NCBI RefSeq assembly: GCF_001042695.1
Contig: NZ_AP012334.1
Location: 434,001 to 498,000, forward strand
Origin: Scardovia inopinata JCM 12537
GTDB lineage: Bacteria; Actinomycetota; Actinomycetes; Actinomycetales; Bifidobacteriaceae
Direction: 5' to 3'
Length of the DNA: 64,000 bases
The notes below the pieces were generated by a model. It was not told the DNA's origin. It ran no database searches and saw nothing but the letters and a program-made list of their open reading frames with translations. Each line of letters opens with the position of its first letter. The stretch's first letter is position 1. Below, piece after piece: positions 1,529-62,380 of the stretch. The position numbers and the translations under genes were made by a program.

Positions 1529-1640
1529 GGTATAGGAAACTACCCCTCACCCAACTGCACTCCAAAAATTCTAAATTGGCGGAAAAACAAGGATTCGGAA
1601 AATTAACGATGCAGTTGGGTGAAGGGTGGTATTCAATACC
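1529..1640. repeat. Dispersed palindromic element, copy 1
   Basis: Inverted arms at 1540-1559 and 1610-1630 share CACCCAACTGCA / TGCAGTTGGGTG with flanking CCCTT/CCCCT bases; the imperfect palindrome extends outward to GGTAT/ATACC. Exactly 50 bases (1560-1609) lie between the two TGCA ends. Other copies are at 24181-24285 and 61873-61962. The interior sequence differs between copies while arm sequence and spacing are kept. Confidence 0.85.
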
Positions 1641-1706: not shown

Positions 1707-2864
1707 ATGTTCGAGATTTATCCAGATCCCTCTGCGAGGGAATTGATGAGGTTTGCTGCTTGGCAGCGTCAACAGGAGGCAGTACGTCTGGCTAGTGACC
1801 TTAGCAAGCGGTTTCGTCGCGATGTGACTTTCAGTCATTACACAGCAGCAGCGCTTTTGGGAGTCCCTGTTCCCGGAGTGCCAGATCACATTCAGTATGA
1901 GCGTGAATTTCTTGGTCATAGAAAGTCAAGAATGCAGATGCAGATAAATCAGGAAGAACAAGAGGTGTTTGTTCCAGACACTCCTATTGGAGAACAGGTA
2001 AATCAGGATCGGACAGATGAACAGCAATCTAAAGAGAGACAAACACAAATAAGCGTGCGAAGAATGAATCAACAACCCACGGCAGGTTTTGCTCAAGCGG
2101 AGTCTAGGCCTGAACCAGTTAAAAAAGCGGAGACAGATGCCGTGAGTGAAATTCCCCGGCATTTTAGACCGGAGCAGAAAATTCACATCATTCATCGCAA
2201 CAAGACCAGGCGCTGTCGGTTATTCGGCGTTACTGCGCATTATTCGAACAACGCCGATGAGCTTGGATCGACAGTTGAAGTGTATGGTTTGCTGTGTTCT
2301 TCGCCGGAATTTCTTTTTACTCAAATGGCTTCCTATCTGAGTCTGGATCAACTGATCGAGTTCGGGGATTCTCTCATTTGCCGTGATGCACTTCTAAGGC
2401 GCACCACGAAAGAAGATCTGTATAAATATGTTGAATCATGTCAGCGTATGCGTGGTTCTCGGAAGTGTAGACAAGCCCTCAAACAGATGCGGGAAAATAC
2501 AGATTCACCCAGGGAAACGCAGCTCAGACTGATCATGGTCCGATCGGGTTTGCCCAACCCTAGCATAAATTTTCCGGTTAGCCCCGATGCTCCGTTTTTG
2601 CGGCAGCGTTTGCAGCCGCAACCGCAATATTTCCTGGACATGGCTTATCCTGCTTTTCGTGTGGGGGTGGAATATAACGGTCTTCATCATCATGATCAGT
2701 GGGCCGATGACTGGCAGCGGTTCAACTCTCTTCAATCGGTCCGCTGGCATATTTTTATTGCTGAGAATAACATAATTGATAATCCAAGTAAAACTGTAAT
2801 TTTCATAAAAAATATTCAGCACGCTCTGATTTTGGCGGGGTGGGATGGCCGTTTCTGCGCATGA
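1707..2864 (+). CDS. Orphan protein with a Vsr/DUF559-like nuclease C-terminus
   Basis: A 385-residue protein I do not recognise as a named family. Visible features: an Arg/Gln-rich N-terminal part (FAAWQRQQEAVRLASDLSKRF), a polar low-complexity linker rich in Gln/Glu, a middle part with IHRNKTRRCRLFGVTAHYS, and a C-terminal region (FLDMAYPAFRVGVEYNG, HHHDQWADDWQRFNSLQSVRW) resembling the one-strand Asp...Glu core of DUF559/Vsr-like endonucleases. The layout recalls AbiEi-like or 'DUF559' proteins common in actinobacteria. ATG at 1707 (MFEIYPDP) is preferred; a GTG at 1626 lies inside the palindromic element's arm. No strong ribosome site. Function unknown; defence or DNA repair is inference only. 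Confidence 0.6.
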   Translation: MFEIYPDPSARELMRFAAWQRQQEAVRLASDLSKRFRRDVTFSHYTAAALLGVPVPGVPDHIQYEREFLGHRKSRMQMQINQEEQEVFVPDTPIGEQVNQDRTDEQQSKERQTQISVRRMNQQPTAGFAQAESRPEPVKKAETDAVSEIPRHFRPEQKIHIIHRNKTRRCRLFGVTAHYSNNADELGSTVEVYGLLCSSPEFLFTQMASYLSLDQLIEFGDSLICRDALLRRTTKEDLYKYVESCQRMRGSRKCRQALKQMRENTDSPRETQLRLIMVRSGLPNPSINFPVSPDAPFLRQRLQPQPQYFLDMAYPAFRVGVEYNGLHHHDQWADDWQRFNSLQSVRWHIFIAENNIIDNPSKTVIFIKNIQHALILAGWDGRFCA

Positions 2865-2895: not shown

Positions 2896-3645
2896 ATGAC
2901 TGACAAGCAGACAAACAACGAGTCTCGATCTTCTGCATCCGGTTTCAAAGCGACTGGTACTCCCGATCTTCGTGATAACTTGCTTGATGAGATCGATCAG
3001 CTGCCGGATGACATGCTGGATCCTCGAAAACGCCTGGCCCGTATGGTTCACCGAGAGATTGCCAATAAACCCTTCAGCGAGCTGACCGCAGTAACCTACG
3101 ATCATGAAGGTGCCCAACTTGCTGGCCACGTTATGCTCGATACCCTGGAAGAGCAGGGTTTCAGTGTGGACGATTTCGATGCGGTTGGCGCCCTGACAAC
3201 TGCTGCTATTCCCCTGGTCAGCGCTGTCATGCATGCTGCCGCTTCCAGGGGGCAGTCAGTAGACGGTTTCGTCATGGATTTTGTTTATCCATCCATCAAA
3301 GGTCCCTCAATTGAAGGGAAGCGGGTGATTTTGCTGGATGCATGGTTGTCAGAGAAATCCTTTATTCAGACCTCATCTTTGGTAACTTTGCAGAATGGGA
3401 ATGAGCTTAATCTTGATTTCGCCATTCTTGATAAATTGGGGGCAGATTTGCTGGCCATCGCCTCTCTGGTTGGCAGTTTGGGGATTGGCAGCGCCGGCAC
3501 AGAAGGCAGCAGCAGCAATGAAACAGGCAGTCAAGATAATTTCGATGCTGCTTCGTCCTCTGATGAGGATCTTTTTATTTCTGTTATTAATCCAATTACA
3601 GGTGTTCAGCGTTCCGTCAGATTTATCCCCCTATTTCGTGGCTGA
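2896..3645 (+). CDS. Phosphoribosyltransferase-like protein
   Basis: 249 residues. The N-terminus is polar (MTDKQTNNESRSSASG); a core from about residue 65 (VTYDHEGAQLAGHVMLDTLEE, FDAVGALTTAAIPLVSAVMHAA) and GKRVILLDAWLSEKSF resemble the substrate and PRPP-loop regions of orotate phosphoribosyltransferase-like proteins. The PRPP loop is atypical: an LLDAW stretch replaces the usual acidic pair followed by T/S-G-G-T, so catalytic activity is uncertain. A Gly/Ser/Ala-rich tail with many Asn/Glu follows. It starts 31 bp after the nuclease-like gene and is followed by the methyltransferase gene, probably in one transcript. Confidence 0.5.
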   Translation: MTDKQTNNESRSSASGFKATGTPDLRDNLLDEIDQLPDDMLDPRKRLARMVHREIANKPFSELTAVTYDHEGAQLAGHVMLDTLEEQGFSVDDFDAVGALTTAAIPLVSAVMHAAASRGQSVDGFVMDFVYPSIKGPSIEGKRVILLDAWLSEKSFIQTSSLVTLQNGNELNLDFAILDKLGADLLAIASLVGSLGIGSAGTEGSSSNETGSQDNFDAASSSDEDLFISVINPITGVQRSVRFIPLFRG

Positions 3646-3680: not shown

Positions 3681-4511
3681 ATGTACGAACCAAGTGATTA
3701 TACCAAGCGAGTTATGGCTGCCGGCGATCCGGGTCTGCGCAAGATTGGGGTAGGACCGTGGGAAGAGGAACATCCGGGGCAGCCTCGTCCCGACCAGTAT
3801 CCTCTCGAACAGCCGCATCCTGATCAGCCACATTCTGATCAGCCGCATCCTGAGCAACTGCGTCCTGACCAATCTCATCCCGACAAATCGCTGCCCAACC
3901 AGCCTTCTGCGGATAATGCCGATTCTTCTTCTCCATCTCCTTCAGTCTTTGACCCTGATCTTCTCGACAACGGGGACAGCAGGAATATCATGGACCGTTA
4001 CCGCTACTGGACGGTAGATGCCATCAAAGCGGACCTGGATCGCCGCGGCCGTCACTCATTTGAAGTTGCTATAGAAAACTGGACTCACGATTTTAATATT
4101 GGCTCTATCGTCCGCACTGCGAATGCATTTACAGCCAGAGGTGTGCATATTATTGGTCCTCACAAGTGGAATCGAAAGGGCTCCCTGATGACGGAACTTT
4201 ACCAAAGCGTCGATTATTATGCCAGTATTGATGAGTTTGTTCACGCTGTTCGCACCCGTGATCAGGAAAGCGGTCAGCATACCCGTCTGATAGCCTTGGA
4301 TATTGTTCCTGGAGCTGTTCCGATAGAATCTTACCAATTTCCTGAACAGTGCATCCTTCTTTTTGGGGCGGAGGGACCAGGTTTGACTTCCCGAGCTTTG
4401 GAAATTGCTGACGATGTTGTTTATATTACTCAGTATGGTTCTGTCCGATCCCTCAACGCCGGTGCTGCCGCCGCTGTTGCTATGCACGCCTGGATGATGC
4501 AACACGGTTAA
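3681..4511 (+). CDS. SpoU/TrmH-family RNA 2'-O-ribose methyltransferase
   Basis: 276 residues. The C-terminal SPOUT domain (about 115-276) shows family motifs: NIGSIVRTANAFTARGVHII (motif 1, Asn and Arg), LLFGAEGPGLTS (motif 2) and SVRSLNAGAAAAVAMHAW (motif 3, deep trefoil knot). It should methylate a ribose of tRNA or 23S rRNA with SAM; the exact target cannot be read. The N-terminal 90 residues are an unusual Pro/His/Asp/Gln tail built from repeats such as HPDQPHSDQPHPEQ, encoded by an imperfect 15-bp repeat. That tail is not part of the catalytic fold. Confidence 0.88.
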   Translation: MYEPSDYTKRVMAAGDPGLRKIGVGPWEEEHPGQPRPDQYPLEQPHPDQPHSDQPHPEQLRPDQSHPDKSLPNQPSADNADSSSPSPSVFDPDLLDNGDSRNIMDRYRYWTVDAIKADLDRRGRHSFEVAIENWTHDFNIGSIVRTANAFTARGVHIIGPHKWNRKGSLMTELYQSVDYYASIDEFVHAVRTRDQESGQHTRLIALDIVPGAVPIESYQFPEQCILLFGAEGPGLTSRALEIADDVVYITQYGSVRSLNAGAAAAVAMHAWMMQHG

Positions 4512-4907: not shown

Positions 4908-6758
4908 ATGTCCTTGATCAATGTTTCACATCTTACTTTTGCCTACGAAGGCAGTTATGACAATATTTTTGAAGATGTTTCTTTTCAAATTGACACCAAC
5001 TGGCGTCTGGGTTTTATCGGCCGTAACGGCCGGGGCAAAACTACTTTTCTTAAACTTCTGATGGGAAAGTATGATTATTCAGGGTCTATATCTTCGCATG
5101 TTGATTTTATTTATTTTCCTTTCGATATCCCTGATCGGTCCGCTCTTACTTCTGACTTAATCCAGCAGACAATCAGCGGCAGACGGTCGGAGCAGACTGA
5201 GGAATCGATCAAGTCAGAACCATGGAAAGAGCATGTGGAAGAATATAAAGAATATACGGAATATACGGAAGAATATGTTGAAGAGCAGGATTATGAGCCA
5301 TGGAAGATAGAGAAAGAGCTCTCCCTCCTGAATGTTGATCTTGATGTCCTCAACCGTCCCTTTTCTACCCTGTCCAATGGGGAGCAGACTAAAGTTCTCC
5401 TGGCTGCCCTCTTTTTGAAGGATAGAGCCTTCCTCTTGATTGATGAGCCCACTAATCATCTGGATGAACCAACTAGAAAGGAAGTAGGCAACTATCTGAA
5501 GCGGAAGAAGAGCTTTATCTTGGTCTCGCACGACCGGGCCCTTTTGGATGAATGTGTCGATCATATTCTGTCCATCAACAAGACAAGCATCGATATTCAG
5601 GCTGGGAATTTTTCGGCCTGGGAGCTCAATAAAAAGCGCAAGGACGCATACGAACTAGCCCAGAATGAGAAACTGCAGAAAGAAGTTGACCAGATGAAGA
5701 TTGCTGCAGTCAGGATAAGCCATTGGTCTGATCTGAAAGAGGCTACAAAAATAGGGGCTGGCGATAAGGGATATGTCGGTCACAAGGCAGCGAAACTTAT
5801 GAAACGCTCAAAATTGGTTGAGCGCCACAGGGATATTGCGATTGAGCAAAAGGAGAAGCTCCTGAAAGATCTGGAGAGGACAGATGATCTGTCCTTGCAT
5901 CCTCTTGATTTTCCCGCTGTCTCTAGTGATAGCAGCGGAAGTAGTGATGGAAGCAACAGCAGCAGAGATGGGCAGAACAGTCTGGACTTGATTCGGGTTG
6001 ACAACCTGTCTTTGGCTTACGGGGATAAGTGTCTGTGTCGGAACCTGTCCTTTACTCTGCATCCGGGGGAGCGGATCGCCCTGCAGGGGAAGAACGGGAG
6101 TGGCAAAACCAGCATTCTTCGTCAGATTTGTTGCAGAGCCAGTGCCCTGGGCATGCCTGGCCAAAGTGCGCCTGCCCAAAGCGAAGCTGCCCAAAGCTCA
6201 GCTGCACAGGATACGTCCGTCCAGCCTTGCCGCCTGCTGAGTGGTCAGATTCTTGTGGCTGACGGCCTGGTTATCTCCCTGCTTTCTCAGGATACGTCTT
6301 TTATGCAGGGGAATCTGGAAGATTTTATGCGGAATAAATATAAGCAGGAGCGGGCTCAGCTGGGTCTTGCAACAAATTATACAAACCGAAATCAGTTGGA
6401 TCTGCTGGAAGACGGCCTGGAAAGACGAATCCGTCTGCTGGTCCAGGTTCTTCGACAGCTTGATTTTTCTGATAGTCAGATGGAGAAGAATCTGCAGGAT
6501 TTCAGTGAAGGACAAAAGAAGAAATTCCTTCTTGCGGTTTCTCTCAGCCAGCGGGCCCATGTTTATATATGGGATGAACCGTTGAATTTTATAGATATTC
6601 TTTCCCGAGTTCAGATAGAAAATCTGATAAGGCGGGCCCAGCCCACCATGATTTTTGTTGAGCACGATCAAACATTTACTCAATCAGTGGCAACCAGGAT
6701 TGTCGATTTGCCGCCTGTAGCACTGCCAGATACGGCTCTGTCTGCTGCATCCGACTGA
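4908..6758 (+). CDS. ABC-F ATPase, Lsa/Vga-like ribosome-protection type
   Basis: 616 residues, soluble protein with two ABC domains and no membrane segments. Domain 1: Walker A GRNGRGKTT, signature LSNGEQ, Walker B FLLIDEPTNHLD. A charged alpha-helical linker (about 235-350, with EVDQMKIAAVRISHW) separates it from domain 2: Walker A GKNGSGKTS, signature FSEGQ, Walker B VYIWDEPLNFID. The DEPLNFID form is characteristic of Lsa/Vga-type proteins, which displace lincosamide, streptogramin A and pleuromutilin drugs from the ribosome. Spacer and Ala/Gln/Ser repeats (AQSEAAQSSAAQ) interrupt domain 2 between Walker A and the signature. ATG at 4908 follows a GGGAGG site; longer upstream forms have none. 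Resistance is inference. Confidence 0.85.
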   Translation: MSLINVSHLTFAYEGSYDNIFEDVSFQIDTNWRLGFIGRNGRGKTTFLKLLMGKYDYSGSISSHVDFIYFPFDIPDRSALTSDLIQQTISGRRSEQTEESIKSEPWKEHVEEYKEYTEYTEEYVEEQDYEPWKIEKELSLLNVDLDVLNRPFSTLSNGEQTKVLLAALFLKDRAFLLIDEPTNHLDEPTRKEVGNYLKRKKSFILVSHDRALLDECVDHILSINKTSIDIQAGNFSAWELNKKRKDAYELAQNEKLQKEVDQMKIAAVRISHWSDLKEATKIGAGDKGYVGHKAAKLMKRSKLVERHRDIAIEQKEKLLKDLERTDDLSLHPLDFPAVSSDSSGSSDGSNSSRDGQNSLDLIRVDNLSLAYGDKCLCRNLSFTLHPGERIALQGKNGSGKTSILRQICCRASALGMPGQSAPAQSEAAQSSAAQDTSVQPCRLLSGQILVADGLVISLLSQDTSFMQGNLEDFMRNKYKQERAQLGLATNYTNRNQLDLLEDGLERRIRLLVQVLRQLDFSDSQMEKNLQDFSEGQKKKFLLAVSLSQRAHVYIWDEPLNFIDILSRVQIENLIRRAQPTMIFVEHDQTFTQSVATRIVDLPPVALPDTALSAASD

Positions 6759-7725: not shown

Positions 7726-9285
7726 ATGGCATTAAGTACAAGTGAGCGCACAGAGCTGGTCCAGTTGTCCGCATCACAGATGGCAGACAAGCTGGCCGCT
7801 GGAGAGGTATCCAGCCGCCAGCTGGTGGAGGCCCATATGGAGGTCATCAACGCTGCAGAAGGCGATATTCATGCCTTTCTTAAGGTCAGCGAAGACCAGG
7901 CATATGCCCAGGCCGATGAAGCAGACCGCCGGCGGGCAACGGGAGAACAGGACGGCCCCCTGGCTGGAGTTCCTATTGCTATCAAAGATATGATCGTTAC
8001 CAAAGGGATTGAAACTACAGCTGCTTCCAAGATCCTTGAAGGATGGGTTCCTCCTTATGACGCTACGGTGATTGAGAAGATCAAAAAAGTCGGTATGCCA
8101 ATTTTGGGCAAAACCAATCTTGATGAGTTTGCTCAGGGGTCATCTACGGAGCATTCGGCCTTTGGCCCTACCTATAATCCCTGGGATACTCAGAGGGTTC
8201 CTGGTGGATCCGGCGGCGGTTCTGCTGCTGCTGTCGCTGCCTTTGAAGCCCCTCTGGCCCTAGGAACAGATACCGGCGGATCTATCCGTCAACCTGGCGC
8301 TCTGACTGGAACTGTGGGCGTCAAGCCTACCTATGGCGGAGTTTCCCGTTTTGGCGCTATTGCCATGGCCTCTTCCCTGGATCAGATTGGCCCCGTCAGC
8401 CGTACAGTTCTGGACGCAGCCCTTCTGCAGGAGATTATTGGCGGTTATGATCCCAAAGATTCCACCTCCATTCCTCAGCCGGTGCCTGCCTTATCTGAGC
8501 AGGCCAGGCAAGGGCAGAAGATGGACCTGAAAGGCATGCGTATTGGTCTAATCAAAGAATTAAGTGGGGACGGTTTCCAAAAAGGAGTCGAAGACCGCTT
8601 TAATGAATCAGTTCAGCTGCTTACAGACATGGGAGCAGATGTAGTTGAGATTTCCCTTCCTCATGCTGAGTATGCTCTTGCTGCCTATTATGTAATTATG
8701 CCTTCCGAGGTTTCCAGCAACCTGGCCAGGTACGACGGTATGCGGTATGGACTGCGGGTCATGCCTCCGGACGATGAACCACAGACTGCGGCCAATATGA
8801 TGGCTTACACCCGGGAAGCCGGTTTTGGCGATGAGGTGAAGAGGCGCATTATTCTGGGTACATATGCCTTGTCTGCCGGTTATTACGATGCTTGGTACGG
8901 TTCTGCCCAAAAGGTTCGTACCCTGATTATTGACGATTTTAAGAAGGCTTTTGAGACAGTTGATGTGCTGGTATCCCCTACATCTCCTTCTACCGCCTTC
9001 AAGTTTGGTGAAAAGATGGATAATCCGCTGGAAATGTATATCAACGATACCGCAACTATTCCGGCAAATTTGGCTGGGGTTCCTGCCATGTCCATTCCCT
9101 GCGGTCTCAGTGATGATGGTCTTCCGGTTGGATTCCAGTTTATTGCTCACCAAATGCAGGATCACAAGATGTATAAGCCAGCTGCAGCCTTGGAGGCAGC
9201 CTTGGAAGACAAATGGGGAGGCCCGGTCTGGAAGTCCCTGAACGCATCATGGCTGAATGCTCCTGCCACCTCAGATGCAGACTAG
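7726..9285 (+). CDS. gatA: Asp-tRNA(Asn)/Glu-tRNA(Gln) amidotransferase subunit A
   Basis: 519-residue glutaminase subunit of the amidase-signature family. Shows the Lys-cisSer-Ser triad region: [10 protein letters not shown] (Lys), [33 protein letters not shown] (Gly/Ser-rich block, split here only as one continuous motif region around residues 162-195). It releases ammonia from glutamine for GatB. ATG at 7726 follows AGGAG. Length and motifs are normal. Confidence 0.95.
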
Positions 9286-20975: not shown

Positions 20976-23837
20976 ATGGAGGGTCCCGATATTAAAGCAG
21001 TAGAAGCCGTTATTGATAACGGCGATTTTGGCAAGCGCGTTCTGCGCTTTGAGACAGGTCGTCTCGCCCAGCAGGCGGATGGGGCAGTTGCCGCTTATCT
21101 TGATGATGATTCCATGATTCTGTCAACGACTACGGCTGGAAGCAGTCCTAAGGAGAATTTCGATTTCTTTCCTCTGACTGTTGATGTTGAAGAAAAAATG
21201 TATGCAGCCGGGAAGATTCCCGGGTCTTTCTTCCGCCGGGAAGGCCGCCCATCCAACGAGGCTATTCTGGCCTGCCGCATTATTGATCGTCCTCTGCGGC
21301 CTCTGTTCCCTCACACTCTGCGTAATGAGGTCCAGGTTGTGGAAACAGTTTTGTCCATCAGCCCTGATGATTCTTATGACATGATTGCTATGAATGCCGC
21401 TTCGGCATCCACCATGATTTCCGGGCTACCTTTTGAAGGTCCGGTTTCCGGCGTCCGCTTGGCTCTGATTGATGATCAGTGGGTAGCCTTCCCTCGGTGG
21501 TCTGAGCGCGAACGGGCTGTTTTTGAACTGGTTGTTGCTGGTCGGGTGCTCGACAATGGAGACGTAGCTATAGCTATGATTGAGGCCGGAGCCGGTAAGA
21601 ACGCATGGAAGCTCATTTATGATGAAGGCATGACCAAGCCGGATGAGGTTGTTGTTGCCGGCGGTCTTGAGGCTGCAAAGCCTTTCATCAAGACCATCTG
21701 CGAGGCTCAGAATGAGCTGAAGAAGGCAGCTGCCAAGGAAACTAAGGACTTCCCCCTCTTCCCTGAATACACTGAGGATCTTTACAATCGAATTGATCAG
21801 ATTGCCCACAGCGACCTGAATGATGCCCTCTCTATTGCCGAGAAGCTTCCCCGCCAAGACCGGATTGCCCAGATTAAGCAGGGTGTTGTTGACACTCTGG
21901 CTGCGGAGTTCACCGATATGGACGATGCTGAGAAAGAAAAAGAAATTGGCAATGCCTTCAAGGAATTGCAGCGCCAGATTGTCCGTACCCGCATCCTGAC
22001 CGAAGATTACCGAATCGATGGCCGTGGTCTGCGTGACATCAGGACCCTCTCTGCTGAAGTGGATGTAGTTCCCCGTGTTCACGGGTCTGCCCTCTTCCAG
22101 CGTGGAGAAACTCAGATCCTGGGCGTGACTACCCTGAATATGCTGAAGATGGAGCAGACAACTGATGCTCTGTCCGGTCCTAGCACCAAGCGGTATATGC
22201 ATAATTATGAGATGCCTCCCTACAGCACCGGAGAAACCGGCCGCGTGGGCTCTCCCAAGCGCCGTGAGGTGGGGCATGGAGCCCTGGCTGAGCGGGCTCT
22301 GATCCCGGTTCTCCCTTCTCGGGAGAAGTTCCCCTATGCTATCCGGCAGGTGTCTGAAGCCATTGGCTCCAATGGTTCCACTTCTATGGGATCGGTCTGC
22401 GCTTCTACTATGTCCCTTCTGGATGCTGGTGTTCCCCTGAAAGCTCCGGTTGCCGGCATTGCTATGGGGCTGGTTTCCGGTGAAGTCAATGGCCAGATGG
22501 TCTACAAAACTTTGACTGATATTCTAGGTGCCGAAGATGCCTTTGGTGATATGGACTTCAAGGTAGCTGGAACATCGGAATTTATTACTGCCCTTCAGCT
22601 CGACACTAAGCTTGATGGTATTCCTGCTGATATTTTGGCTGCTGCTCTGCGTCAGGCTTATGAGGCCAGAACCACTATTCTTGAAGTCATCAACGAGTGC
22701 ATTGATGGTGTTAACGAGATGAGCCCCTATGCTCCTCGGATTATCAGCATGACTGTTCCTGTGGATAAGATTGGCGAAATCATTGGGCCTAAGGGCAAGA
22801 TGATTAACGAAATCCAGGAAAAGACCGGTGCTGAAGTCACCATTGAGGATGATGGTACTGTGTACATTGCATCCGAAGGCGGTAATGCCGCTGAAGAAGC
22901 CCGCAAGTTGATTGATCAAATTGCTAATCCTCATATTCCTGAAGAAGGGGAGAAGTATCAGGGCAAGGTTGTGAAAACCACTAGCTTTGGTGCCTTCGTC
23001 AACCTGACTCCCGGAACCGACGGACTTCTGCATATTTCACAGATTCGCAACCTGGCTAACGGTGATCGTATTGATGCTGTGGAAGATGTTTTGCGCGAAG
23101 GCGACACCGTTGAGGTAGTTGTTCAGGGCGTGGATGACAAGGGTAAGATTTCTCTGGCAATTCCTGGATTCGAAGATCAGGAAAACAACTCCCGTTCTGG
23201 GGCTGGCCGTGGTTTTGGCCATTCTGACAGGGGCAACCGTGGAGATAGGTATGACCGCGGAGACCGTGATGATCGTAGTGATCGCGGCGACCGGTCCGAT
23301 CGTGGAGATCGTTCCGACCGCGCCGACCGGTCTTCTCATAACCGCCGTCATGACCGTTCTGATCGTTCCGACCGCGCCGACCGTTCTGACCGGAATGATC
23401 GTTCCGACCGCGCCGACCGTTCTGACCGGAATGATCGTTCCGACCGCGCCGACCGAGGCAGCCGTTACGACCGTAGAGATGAAGCAGGAGATGACGATCG
23501 CTTTGATCGTTCTTCCCGTTTCCGTCGTTATGACGATGACGACCGTTCTGACCGCCATAATTCCCGGTATGAGGATGACGACCGTGATTATCGTTCTCGC
23601 CGTCCCCGCCGTGATGATCGGGACGATAGGTCTGATCGTTCCGACCGTTCTGATCGTTCCGACCGTTCTGACCGTGGCGATAGGTATGACAGGTCCGACT
23701 GGGGTTCTCACAGCCGTCGTTCTGACCGCTATGCCGATGAAGATGCTTATAACGAGTATCGTCAAGGTCGTGAGGAAAGAACGGCCCGTCCCCGCCGCCG
23801 TATTCGCCGCGACTTCGATCCTTTCGACGAGGATTAA
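20976..23837 (+). CDS. pnp: Polynucleotide phosphorylase with extended Asp/Arg/Ser tail
   Basis: 953 residues (usual bacterial length about 700-750). Two RNase PH-like domains (core about 25-250 and 340-570, the second with [21 protein letters not shown] and the catalytic [17 protein letters not shown] and [13 protein letters not shown] regions), then a KH domain ([22 protein letters not shown]) and an S1 domain ([20 protein letters not shown]). It phosphorolyses mRNA 3' ends. The last ~200 residues are a disordered tail built mostly from Arg-Ser-Asp and Arg-Gly-Asp units, ending with [14 protein letters not shown]. That tail is encoded by near-identical short DNA repeats. AAAGGAGG precedes ATG 20976. 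Confidence 0.93.
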
Positions 23838-24180: not shown

Positions 24181-24285
24181 TATAAACTATCCTTCACCCA
24201 ACTGCACAGGGAAAAAAAGAAAGTGACGTAATTCCAACCTTTTTATTTAGAGACAATGCAGTTGGGTGAAGGGTAGTTTTCTATA
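24181..24285. repeat. Dispersed palindromic element, copy 2
   Basis: Left arm 24186-24206 and right arm 24257-24277 share CTTCACCCAACTGCA / TGCAGTTGGGTGAAG and extend to TATA on both sides. Exactly 50 bases (24207-24256) separate the TGCA ends, as in the other two copies. Confidence 0.85.
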
Positions 24286-24621: not shown

Positions 24622-26298
24622 TTAGTCGGCTAAGGCCTTGTTGACAACAGCTGTTGCCTCATCGAGAACCTTGTCCAGAGTTTCTTCTGAAATGAAGGAT
24701 TCTGCGTATACCTTGTAGATGTTCTCCGTGCCAGAGGGACGGGCAGCGAACCAATTATTCTTGGTTGTTACCTTAATTCCTCCAATGGGAGCACCATTGC
24801 CGGGAGCCTCAGTCATCTTCTGCTCAATGGCCTCACCACCGAGGGTGGTGTCGGTCACGGAATCAGGGGTCAGGCTGGCAAACTTTTGCTTCTGCTCCAG
24901 GGTGGTAGGGGTGTCAACCCGCTTGTACCAGCTCTGTCCGAAACGTGCAACCTGCTCATCATGAAGCTGAGCAGGGGTCTTACCGGTCTTGGCCGTTATC
25001 TCTGCCGCGAGAAGATCGGGAATAATGCCGTCTTTGTCAGTTGTCCATACACGGCCGTCGAAACGCAGGAAGCTCATTCCAGAGCTTTCTTCGCCGCCAA
25101 AACCGACTTCGCCGTTAAAGAGCGGATCCACGAACCATTTGAAGCCAACGGGAACTTCCACCAGCTTTGCGTTAATAGAAGCGGCAACGCGGTCAATTAG
25201 GGAAGAGGAGACCAGAGTCTTGCCAATGCCTGAGCCTTCCGGCCAGCCGGGCCTATTACCGCCAAAGAGGTATTCCACGCAGACAGCAATATAATGGTTC
25301 GGGTTCATCACACCGCTGCCAGGGCAAACAATTCCGTGCCGATCAGCATCTGGGTCGGTACCGCCTACCAGGTCGTACTGATCCCATGCGCCGGCATTGA
25401 GCCTGTCTACCAGTCCCTTCATGGCATAGGGAGAACTGGGATCCATGCGAATCTTTCCATCGTGATCGATGGTCATGAAGGACCACTGCGGGTCAACTTT
25501 CGGGTTTACTAGGCCAATATTGAGGCCGTATTTCTCGTTGATCAGTTCCCAATAGTTCACCGAAGCCCCACCCAAGGGGTCAATTCCCAAACGGACTCCG
25601 GAACTCTTGATCAGATCAAGATCAATAACGTTTTTCAGATCGTCCACATAATGCTCGCGATAATCAAAGCGCTCAACCAGATCGGACGTGACGGCCTGGC
25701 TGTATGGCACACGGGCCACATTCTTCCAGTTGGGGAGGAGCTCGTTGGCGCGCTGAGCAATGGCATTGGTTGTCTCAGCCGGGGCAGGCCCGCCGGTGGG
25801 TGGGTCATACTTGAAGCCGCCGTCTGTTGGAGGATTATGGGATGGAGTGACCACAATGCCGTCTGCCAGGTCATCCCCACTGAACCGCTGACTGCCGTCT
25901 GCGGCGCGATTGTGGGTTAGGATAGCCTGGGAAACAGTAGGTGTGGGGGTGTAATCATCGCGAGAATCAATGCGAACGCGAACTCCGTTGGCAACGAGGA
26001 CTTCGATGGCGGTCTTCCATGCCGGCAGGCTTAGGGCGTGGGTGTCACGGCCCAGATAAAGCGGACCGGTGACCTTGGCATTCTTGCGATATTCAGCGAT
26101 GGCTTGAGAAATTACTACAATGTGAGCTTCATTGAAGGAAGTCTTCAGACTTGATCCCCGGTGCCCGGAGGTACCAAAAGCAACTCGCTGCTCAGGTACA
26201 GAAACATCAGGAACGAGGTTGTAGTAAGAATCCAAAACCTCAGTGACATTAATGAGATCTTTTTCGGTGGCGGGCATTCCCGCATTTGTTGCAACCAT
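24622..26298 (-). CDS. pgm: Phosphoglucomutase (alpha-D-glucose-specific)
   Basis: 558 residues; interconverts glucose-1-phosphate and glucose-6-phosphate. Motifs: AFGTSGHRG, the phosphoserine loop [13 protein letters not shown], metal-binding DPDADRHGI, the sugar-binding [10 protein letters not shown] and the phosphate-binding [10 protein letters not shown]. Full length. It follows from glycogen/UDP-glucose metabolism. The next gene upstream on the same strand (lipid kinase) ends 88 bp before its start. Confidence 0.96.
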
Positions 26299-61487: not shown

Positions 61488-62380
61488 GAGAAATGCCTTT
61501 CATTCCAGGGTATCTAGGTATTGATTGACTTTTATTAATAAGTTTTTATTGATTGATTTTGTTTATACCTGTCATAATTTTATACCAGCCATGTCTATGC
61601 CCATTTCTGTCATCGGTGGTGCGTCTTAAGTCTTGAAACGGTTAGGCGCTCGCCTGCATGACGTTTTAGATATTTAGATATTCGCTTAAACATCTGTTAA
61701 AACACCTGTTAAACGAATATCTAAACGACGGTTTAAGCGAATATTCGAATCGTTATTTAAATGATGGCTTTCTGGGTGCCGGCAGAAGATAAGAACATAA
61801 TATTCTTATTATTAACAGTGTATTTTCCAGATAATGGTATGGAAAAAAGGTGATTTTAGAAAGGATAAAAAAGTACCCCTCACCCAACTGCACAGCGGAA
61901 AAATAAAAACCGTGGAAAATAGCCATTCTTGTTTTCCACTTGTGCAGTTGGGTGAGGGGTATGTGAGTATACTTTCCATTGAAAGGGTGAAAAACGAGTC
62001 TTTTTTCGATATTTTCCAGTTTGTCTCTCAATATGTTTGCAGTAAATTCTTGGTTCATTCATAATTTTCTCCCATAATTTGTGTAATTGGATTAAAGTAA
62101 TTGGATTTGTGCAATTGGATTAGTGTAATTGGTATGGTGTTTTCAATCGGATAATTACCAGTGGGGAACTTGCCGAACGATTCGTCGTAACCGTTGTGAG
62201 TGCTCGCTGTAACTGCCGTGACTGCTCGTTGGAACCGCTGTGAGTGTTTGTTGGAACTGTGCTCGTAAAACTATTGTGCTAAAAGAGAGAAATAAGCGCA
62301 ATAGTATAAGGTTGAGGCGGTAAAGTTGATATTTCCATAGTCTGGGCCTCTGCCGGATGGTATGCCTTTAGGTGAAAAGT
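61488..62380. other. Intergenic region with hairpins, palindromic element and repeats
   Basis: No gene. TTTAGATATTCG (61673-61684) pairs with CGAATATCTAAA (61714-61725). Copy 3 of the palindromic element follows at 61873-61962. From 62080 to 62140 TAATTGGATTA-type units repeat, and 62180-62275 is rich in GTTGTGAGTGCTCG-like repeats. Confidence 0.5.
61873..61962. repeat. Dispersed palindromic element, copy 3
   Basis: Arms 61873-61893 and 61942-61962 pair perfectly over about 19 bases around CCCCTCACCCAACTGCAC. The TGCA ends are exactly 50 bases apart (61893-61942). The interior carries its own stem GTGGAAAA/TTTTCCAC. Confidence 0.88.

Follow-up and report, generated by a model that had tools for sequence, protein, structure and literature searches.

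Dispersed palindromes of fixed spacing in Scardovia inopinata as probable DNA sites of a DUF559 protein

The window, i.e. the whole 64,000-nucleotide stretch of DNA that was analysed, is part of the 1.80-Mb, single-contig genome of Scardovia inopinata JCM 12537 (G000) and carries three copies of an intergenic palindrome, the first of which lies just upstream of a gene of the DUF559 family. The features are as follows:

1539..1630, no strand: palindrome copy 1, with 12-bp arms at 1548-1559 and 1610-1621 and a 50-bp interior
1707..2864, + strand: DUF559 gene, 385 aa, matching PF04480 with 21.8 bits against a cut-off of 20.6
2896..3645, + strand: conserved gene following the DUF559 gene, resembling a phosphoribosyltransferase by eye and without Pfam support
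24187..24276, no strand: palindrome copy 2, with arms at 24195-24206 and 24257-24268 and a 50-bp interior
61874..61961, no strand: palindrome copy 3, with arms at 61881-61892 and 61943-61954 and a 50-bp interior

Copy 1 is located 67-85 bp upstream of the DUF559 gene, copy 2 is flanked by the convergent pnp (20976-23837, +) and phosphoglucomutase (24622-26298, -) genes, and copy 3 by divergent methyladenine glycosylase and thiolase genes. All three copies named in the preliminary description of this DNA are present, and the distance between the TGCA ends is exactly 50 bp in every one of them. The DUF559 assignment passes the PF04480 gathering cut-off, and the homologue of the window protein in the sister species G005 scores 20.6 bits. 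A homologue of the gene at 2896-3645 also adjoins the DUF559 gene in G005.

When copies and spacings were counted genome-wide, 12 intact pairs of CACCCAACTGCA..TGCAGTTGGGTG were recorded in G000, two of them with a single mismatch in one arm, in addition to a decayed 13th copy near C1:1512130-1512203; a reversed control pattern gave no matches, as opposed to 9 for the true pattern. The interior is exactly 50 bp long in 11 of the 12 pairs and 62 bp in the other (C1:21688-21773, L010). Among relatives, AACTGCA-N35..65-TGCAGTT occurs at 12 places in Bifidobacterium callimiconis and B. tissieri, all with exactly 50 bp, and a B. callimiconis copy with an interior of 70 bp is found at L108:1501-1584. 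The fixed 50-bp spacing put forward at the outset thus holds at nearly every place, the copies with 62 and 70 bp being the exceptions. All exact arm 12-mers in G000 fall within pairs, 50-62 bp apart. The copies sit between convergent, divergent and co-directional genes with no strand preference relative to them, and the neighbours are ordinary genes in all orientations, among which no common function was found.

Whereas the interiors had been described as mostly unlike one another, those of G000 share 52% identity in an ungapped alignment, compared with about 30% for shuffled sequences, and their consensus is symmetric (..G..AAAAAA..AAAA.GGC..AATT..GCC.TTTT..TTTTTT..C..). What lies between the arms is thus a dyad with weak conservation rather than free sequence, and the proviso attached to the earlier reading, that well-aligning interiors would speak against it, is half borne out, in that a weak symmetric core is common to the copies. 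The stems extend beyond the 12-bp arms, often reaching 25-30 bp, and contain complementary changes that are specific to single copies; for instance, TAGGCCT/AGGCCTA stands in place of the TACCCCT/AGGGGTA of other copies. In the outer 12 bp the true right-hand partners give 81 matches, versus 65 when partners are shuffled among copies (p=0.0014). Pairing in the core is not copy-specific, the observed value equalling the permuted one (p about 0.5); since true partners show no excess pairing there, the interior does not behave as a base-paired stem.

The possibility has to be considered that the palindromes work as hairpins of RNA or single-stranded DNA (a structured RNA, a terminator or a REP processed as single-stranded DNA), with the DUF559 protein acting on the folded form. 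Strong stems on both strands would fit, as would the compensatory changes both in the G000 outer arms (p=0.0014) and in the B. callimiconis/B. tissieri arms (p<0.001), and because the outer arms covary, a single-stranded hairpin form may be adopted. However, the core lacks copy-specific pairing, a search of the whole window with Rfam at gathering score returned two tRNAs only and nothing at the palindromes, neither a terminator nor a T-run was called at copy 1, and the copies are indifferent to the strand of the neighbouring genes. Hairpins are for these reasons a rather unlikely explanation. Of the two structural needs that had been read from the fixed spacing, the better match is DNA bound at two fixed points, and an RNA hairpin is less favoured given the pairing in the core, the Rfam result and the presence of copies in all gene orientations.

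Members of the family in other species were sought with a covariance model (R1) built from eleven G000 copies, which scores both strands alike because the element is symmetric. Its matches include B. callimiconis (G007) and B. tissieri (G050), and an exact scan for the arms in 84,980 genomes gave real matches in these two species only; arm matches in Massilia, Acidobacteria and Gammaproteobacteria lie in coding-like sequence and look like chance, and no match was obtained in viral contigs, phages or plasmids. Weak R1 matches in sister species, chance-like at first, proved to be other arm types: two other species of the genus, G005 and G021, have palindromes of the same architecture with unrelated arms (AAGTGGCACTMAACGCAAGTA and CTGGTGGTAAAACACGCAGATACAAAA, respectively), and the arms in G062 are CGGTTCACAAATCAAAGATACCC. 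There are thus five arm types and one common core geometry, most copies reading RTA-N40-TAY from the inner arm with GGAATT-like letters at the centre. Core identity is 0.57 both within G000 and between G000 and G005, whereas arm identity drops from 0.88 to 0.25, and therefore the arms, and not the cores, form a genome-wide dialect. In other words, arms that are uniform in one genome bear a near-random relation to those of another, while the cores are no closer within a genome than to the closest relatives.

Several arrangements of dialects were recorded. In B. callimiconis, a type-A palindrome is often followed within about 150 bp by one of type B (GGTTCACAAATCGAAGATACC), as at L137:7988-8079 and 8166-8254, L141:8030-8115 and 8134-8220, and L145:5223-5302 and 5416-5503. 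No DUF559 gene adjoining type-B arms was found in the B. callimiconis genome, and the type-B palindromes are possibly orphans of an earlier specificity. In G021, two copies about 295 bp apart (C1:168687-169091; L040:1501-1905) carry arms close to the G000 type (CTCACCCAAC) on the G021 inner arm and combine two dialects. A separate family of clustered REP-like GGGAGCTGTC/GACAGCTCCC repeats is also present in B. callimiconis (L092:2540-2690, L082:6427-6549, L095:1046-1255). Two B. callimiconis assembly contigs end in the same palindrome (L122, at the start of G007 C28, and L113, at the end of C4), so that palindromes may be under-counted in draft genomes.

Across the genus, palindrome copies are not at identical positions. 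The elements of G005 and G021 share the same tRNA-Asp/Phe intergenic region without occupying the same base, and window copy 2 has no counterpart at the same place in either species; the intergenic DNA is too diverged for an empty-site comparison to show an insertion edge. All three B. tissieri copies, on the other hand, are at loci orthologous to B. callimiconis copies and unchanged in length, with arm differences on both sides and a core identity of only 0.53-0.60. Together, these observations imply that the elements are of long standing at some sites, whereas at others they are recent or have been lost. That the palindromes are intergenic, multicopy, bounded by inverted arms and sporadic across species could suggest a family of MITEs mobilised by a classical transposase, with the arms as terminal inverted repeats. 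Yet every exact 12-mer arm in G000 belongs to a short pair, from which it follows that no autonomous element carries the same ends. Uniform arms around diverged cores are moreover the reverse of transposon decay, a single core is common to species with unrelated arms, and the B. tissieri copies have stayed in place. The MITE explanation is largely refuted, and we regard it as very improbable.

The DUF559 gene was picked post hoc among the neighbours, and its linkage to palindromes was then tested on independent loci. In G005 the DUF559 homologue lies between two palindromes, both with G005 arms, and in B. callimiconis it adjoins an A-type palindrome. With a profile built from these three proteins (G000, G005, G007), 16 of 23 Bifidobacteriaceae genomes proved to contain DUF559 genes. 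Two more of them, G021 and G062, have close homologues, each flanked by exactly the arms of its own genome. Own-genome arms therefore accompany the close homologue in all five species (G000, G005, G007, G021 and G062). At other DUF559 genes there are palindromes with additional arm types and a TTGNAATTNCAA-like centre. A second gene in G005 has one arm type on both sides (L209), and near a second gene in G000 stands a palindrome of its own, CTCACCTAACACG-N51-CGTGTTAGGTGAG, whose arms partly resemble those of the main family (L196:1112-1188; C1:1397982-1398058).

The association is strong in numbers. In Bifidobacteriaceae, a spaced palindrome occurs within 600 bp of 25 of 48 DUF559 loci and in 6.4% of control windows drawn from 400 kb of Bifidobacteriaceae DNA (p=9e-18, or 4e-15 when the three query loci are left out), and with gene-anchored, length-matched controls the counts are 20/47 DUF559 genes versus 6/108 others (Fisher 8e-8; 1e-6 without the query loci). 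Of the palindromes in the control DNA, only one (L233, G058) has the centre motif, and its arms are those of the palindrome that adjoins a DUF559 gene of G058. Among other Actinomycetes the count is 18 of 29 DUF559 loci, compared with 3.6% of control windows (2e-19) and 4/85 control genes (Fisher 4e-10), and 6 of these 18 loci have palindromes on both sides. No nearby palindrome was detectable at 27 of 47 Bifidobacteriaceae and 11 of 29 other DUF559 genes, and no matching gene was found beside a palindrome for the B. tissieri A-type and B. callimiconis type-B sets. Related DUF559 proteins tend to have common arms, as in pairs that are 90%, 80% and 69% identical and in a GATCATG-armed group, the overall correlation of protein relatedness with arm likeness being weak (Mantel rho 0.12, p=0.02). 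DUF559 matches are present in 59 of 79 sampled Actinomycete genomes, and one weak protein match is on an Arthrobacter megaplasmid record. From these comparative data, the pairing of DUF559 genes with palindromes is well supported. We found no published link between gene and palindrome, whether for DUF559, for Vsr-like nucleases or for Actinomycete palindromes, in a literature in which subscription journals were thinly covered and an earlier description is possible.

The best single evidence that gene and palindrome belong together is a natural swap at the orthologous DUF559 loci of B. callimiconis and G062, which have A-type and B-type arms, respectively. DNA identity between the two is about 95% in the flank past the palindrome and about 90-100% within roughly the first 72 codons, and falls abruptly to 25-75% over the palindrome and the remaining 240 codons. 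As judged from this alignment, the C-terminal three-quarters of the DUF559 gene and the adjacent palindrome have been replaced together, from which we infer that arm specificity would reside in that part of the protein. Elsewhere in G062 (C19, L171:115-289), two tandem B-type palindromes stand where B. callimiconis and B. tissieri hold one A-type. In another orthologous B. callimiconis/G062 pair, the L144 element and L172:1830-1916, one half of the core is common (18/20 bases) and the other differs, which in this one case suggests conversion of half an element from the centre, the outcome expected of repair that starts there.

An AlphaFold2 model of the window protein was obtained with 41 homologues in the alignment (pLDDT 79); a PDB sequence search had given no relative. 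The C-terminal domain of the model resembles the homing endonuclease I-Bth0305I (3r3p; Z 9.3, with a Foldseek probability of 1.00 and a TM of 0.79 to the target) and Vsr (Z 6.4), and residues 27-262 resemble the AbiEi antitoxin (6y8q; Z 10.4) and Rv2827c (Z 7.2). E270, E322 and D335 are kept in all 41 homologues, D311 in 40 and H328 in 39. On this prediction, an AbiEi-like part is joined in the protein to a Vsr/EDxHD-like nuclease domain at the C-terminus, the modelled fold and the acidic and histidine residues being those by which an EDxHD homing endonuclease is recognised.

AbiEi and Rv2827c are autoregulators that bind inverted repeats (PMC7319586), and since the model matches both, the palindromes could also be operators at which an AbiEi-like DUF559 regulator binds its own and other promoters. 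A copy just upstream of the DUF559 gene in G000, G005 and G021 would agree with this. On the other hand, the palindrome is on the 3′ side only at 15 of 23 Bifidobacteriaceae loci, copies are found between convergent genes, and the nuclease residues are kept in the 41 homologues bar one D and two H exceptions, which makes an operator role unlikely.

We consider it probable, from the comparative sequence evidence, that the palindromes are dispersed double-stranded DNA sites of DUF559 proteins, in G000 of the one encoded at 1707-2864, because this reading accounts for the fixed spacing, the dyad core, the arm dialects, the gene linkage, the co-replacement and the nuclease-type fold and residues. 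The long multidomain protein would allow two DUF559 protomers to bind the inverted arms, and the bound dimer would place two Vsr/EDxHD nuclease domains at the central pseudo-palindrome of the TTGNAATTNCAA type. Judging from fold and pattern only, cleavage could then take place at the centre and be followed by repair from another copy via arm homology. Such cutting and repair, the weakest step of the scheme, would keep the arms uniform while the cores drift and might enable the element to persist or spread between genes. Genes for DUF559/AbiEi-like nucleases rank with the most frequent Actinomycete genes that lack an explanation; cognate DNA sites would make the function of these nucleases directly testable, and the natural arm switches are ready-made specificity swaps.

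How do these palindromes compare with known systems? The integron attC pattern (RYYYAAC...GTTRRRY) fits the G000 arms ACCCAAC/GTTGGGT and fails on GCAGAAC/GTTCTGC of B. callimiconis. Like MITEs and ERIC/Correia-type repeats, the elements are short, palindromic, intergenic and multicopy; unlike them, they have conserved arms and a diverged core, and from species to species the arms are replaced entirely around a constant core geometry. With AbiEi and Rv2827c, binders of inverted repeats, the DUF559 protein shares the fold of model residues 27-262, but it is fused to a nuclease and its sites are dispersed through the genome, and no DUF1814/AbiEii toxin gene is among the neighbours of the DUF559 gene (849-1382, 2896-3645 and 3681-4511). 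The target on which I-Bth0305I acts as a dimer measures nearly 60 bp (PMC3943268), and the palindromic elements, at 64-80 bp, are close to this length. The catalytic-domain fold and the E/D/H/D-type residues are common to both proteins; however, the DUF559 gene is not intron-borne and carries the AbiEi-like part, and its presumed sites are palindromes flanking its own gene and scattered elsewhere rather than an uninterrupted host gene.

The closest likeness is to REPtrons, in which REP/REPIN palindromes are associated with RAYT (TnpA-REP) HUH transposases and protein and palindrome co-evolve, REPINs having two conserved inverted ends, a variable spacer and compensatory changes (PMC3116915, PMC8266576). 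Here, too, species-specific intergenic palindromes with two conserved inverted ends around a variable spacer are dispersed in the genome, and matching ones flank an enzyme gene, with DUF559 in the place of RAYT; compensatory changes and joint evolution of protein and palindrome are likewise common to both. The differences are that the linked protein is a DUF559 Vsr-like nuclease, that there are about 3-15 copies instead of hundreds, and that the spacing is long and exact with a conserved centre. The 5′ tetranucleotide GTAG of REPtrons stands beside the right arm in only 6 of the 12 G000 copies, short of the REPtron pattern, and a Y1/HUH RAYT gene (PF01797) was found in none of the 10 genomes with these palindromes, control genomes including E. 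coli being positive. By analogy, the arrangement is most likely REPtron-like with a non-HUH nuclease. The wider proposition, on which we are evenly divided, is that Actinomycete DUF559 (AbiEi–Vsr-like) proteins may be the enzymes of a new REPtron-like selfish or genome-structuring class, each with its own palindrome dialect and with a specificity switched by cassette replacement of the C-terminal part and the palindrome. If this is true, dispersed palindromes with a dedicated enzyme would have arisen more than once, here with a nuclease unrelated to the enzyme of REPtrons.
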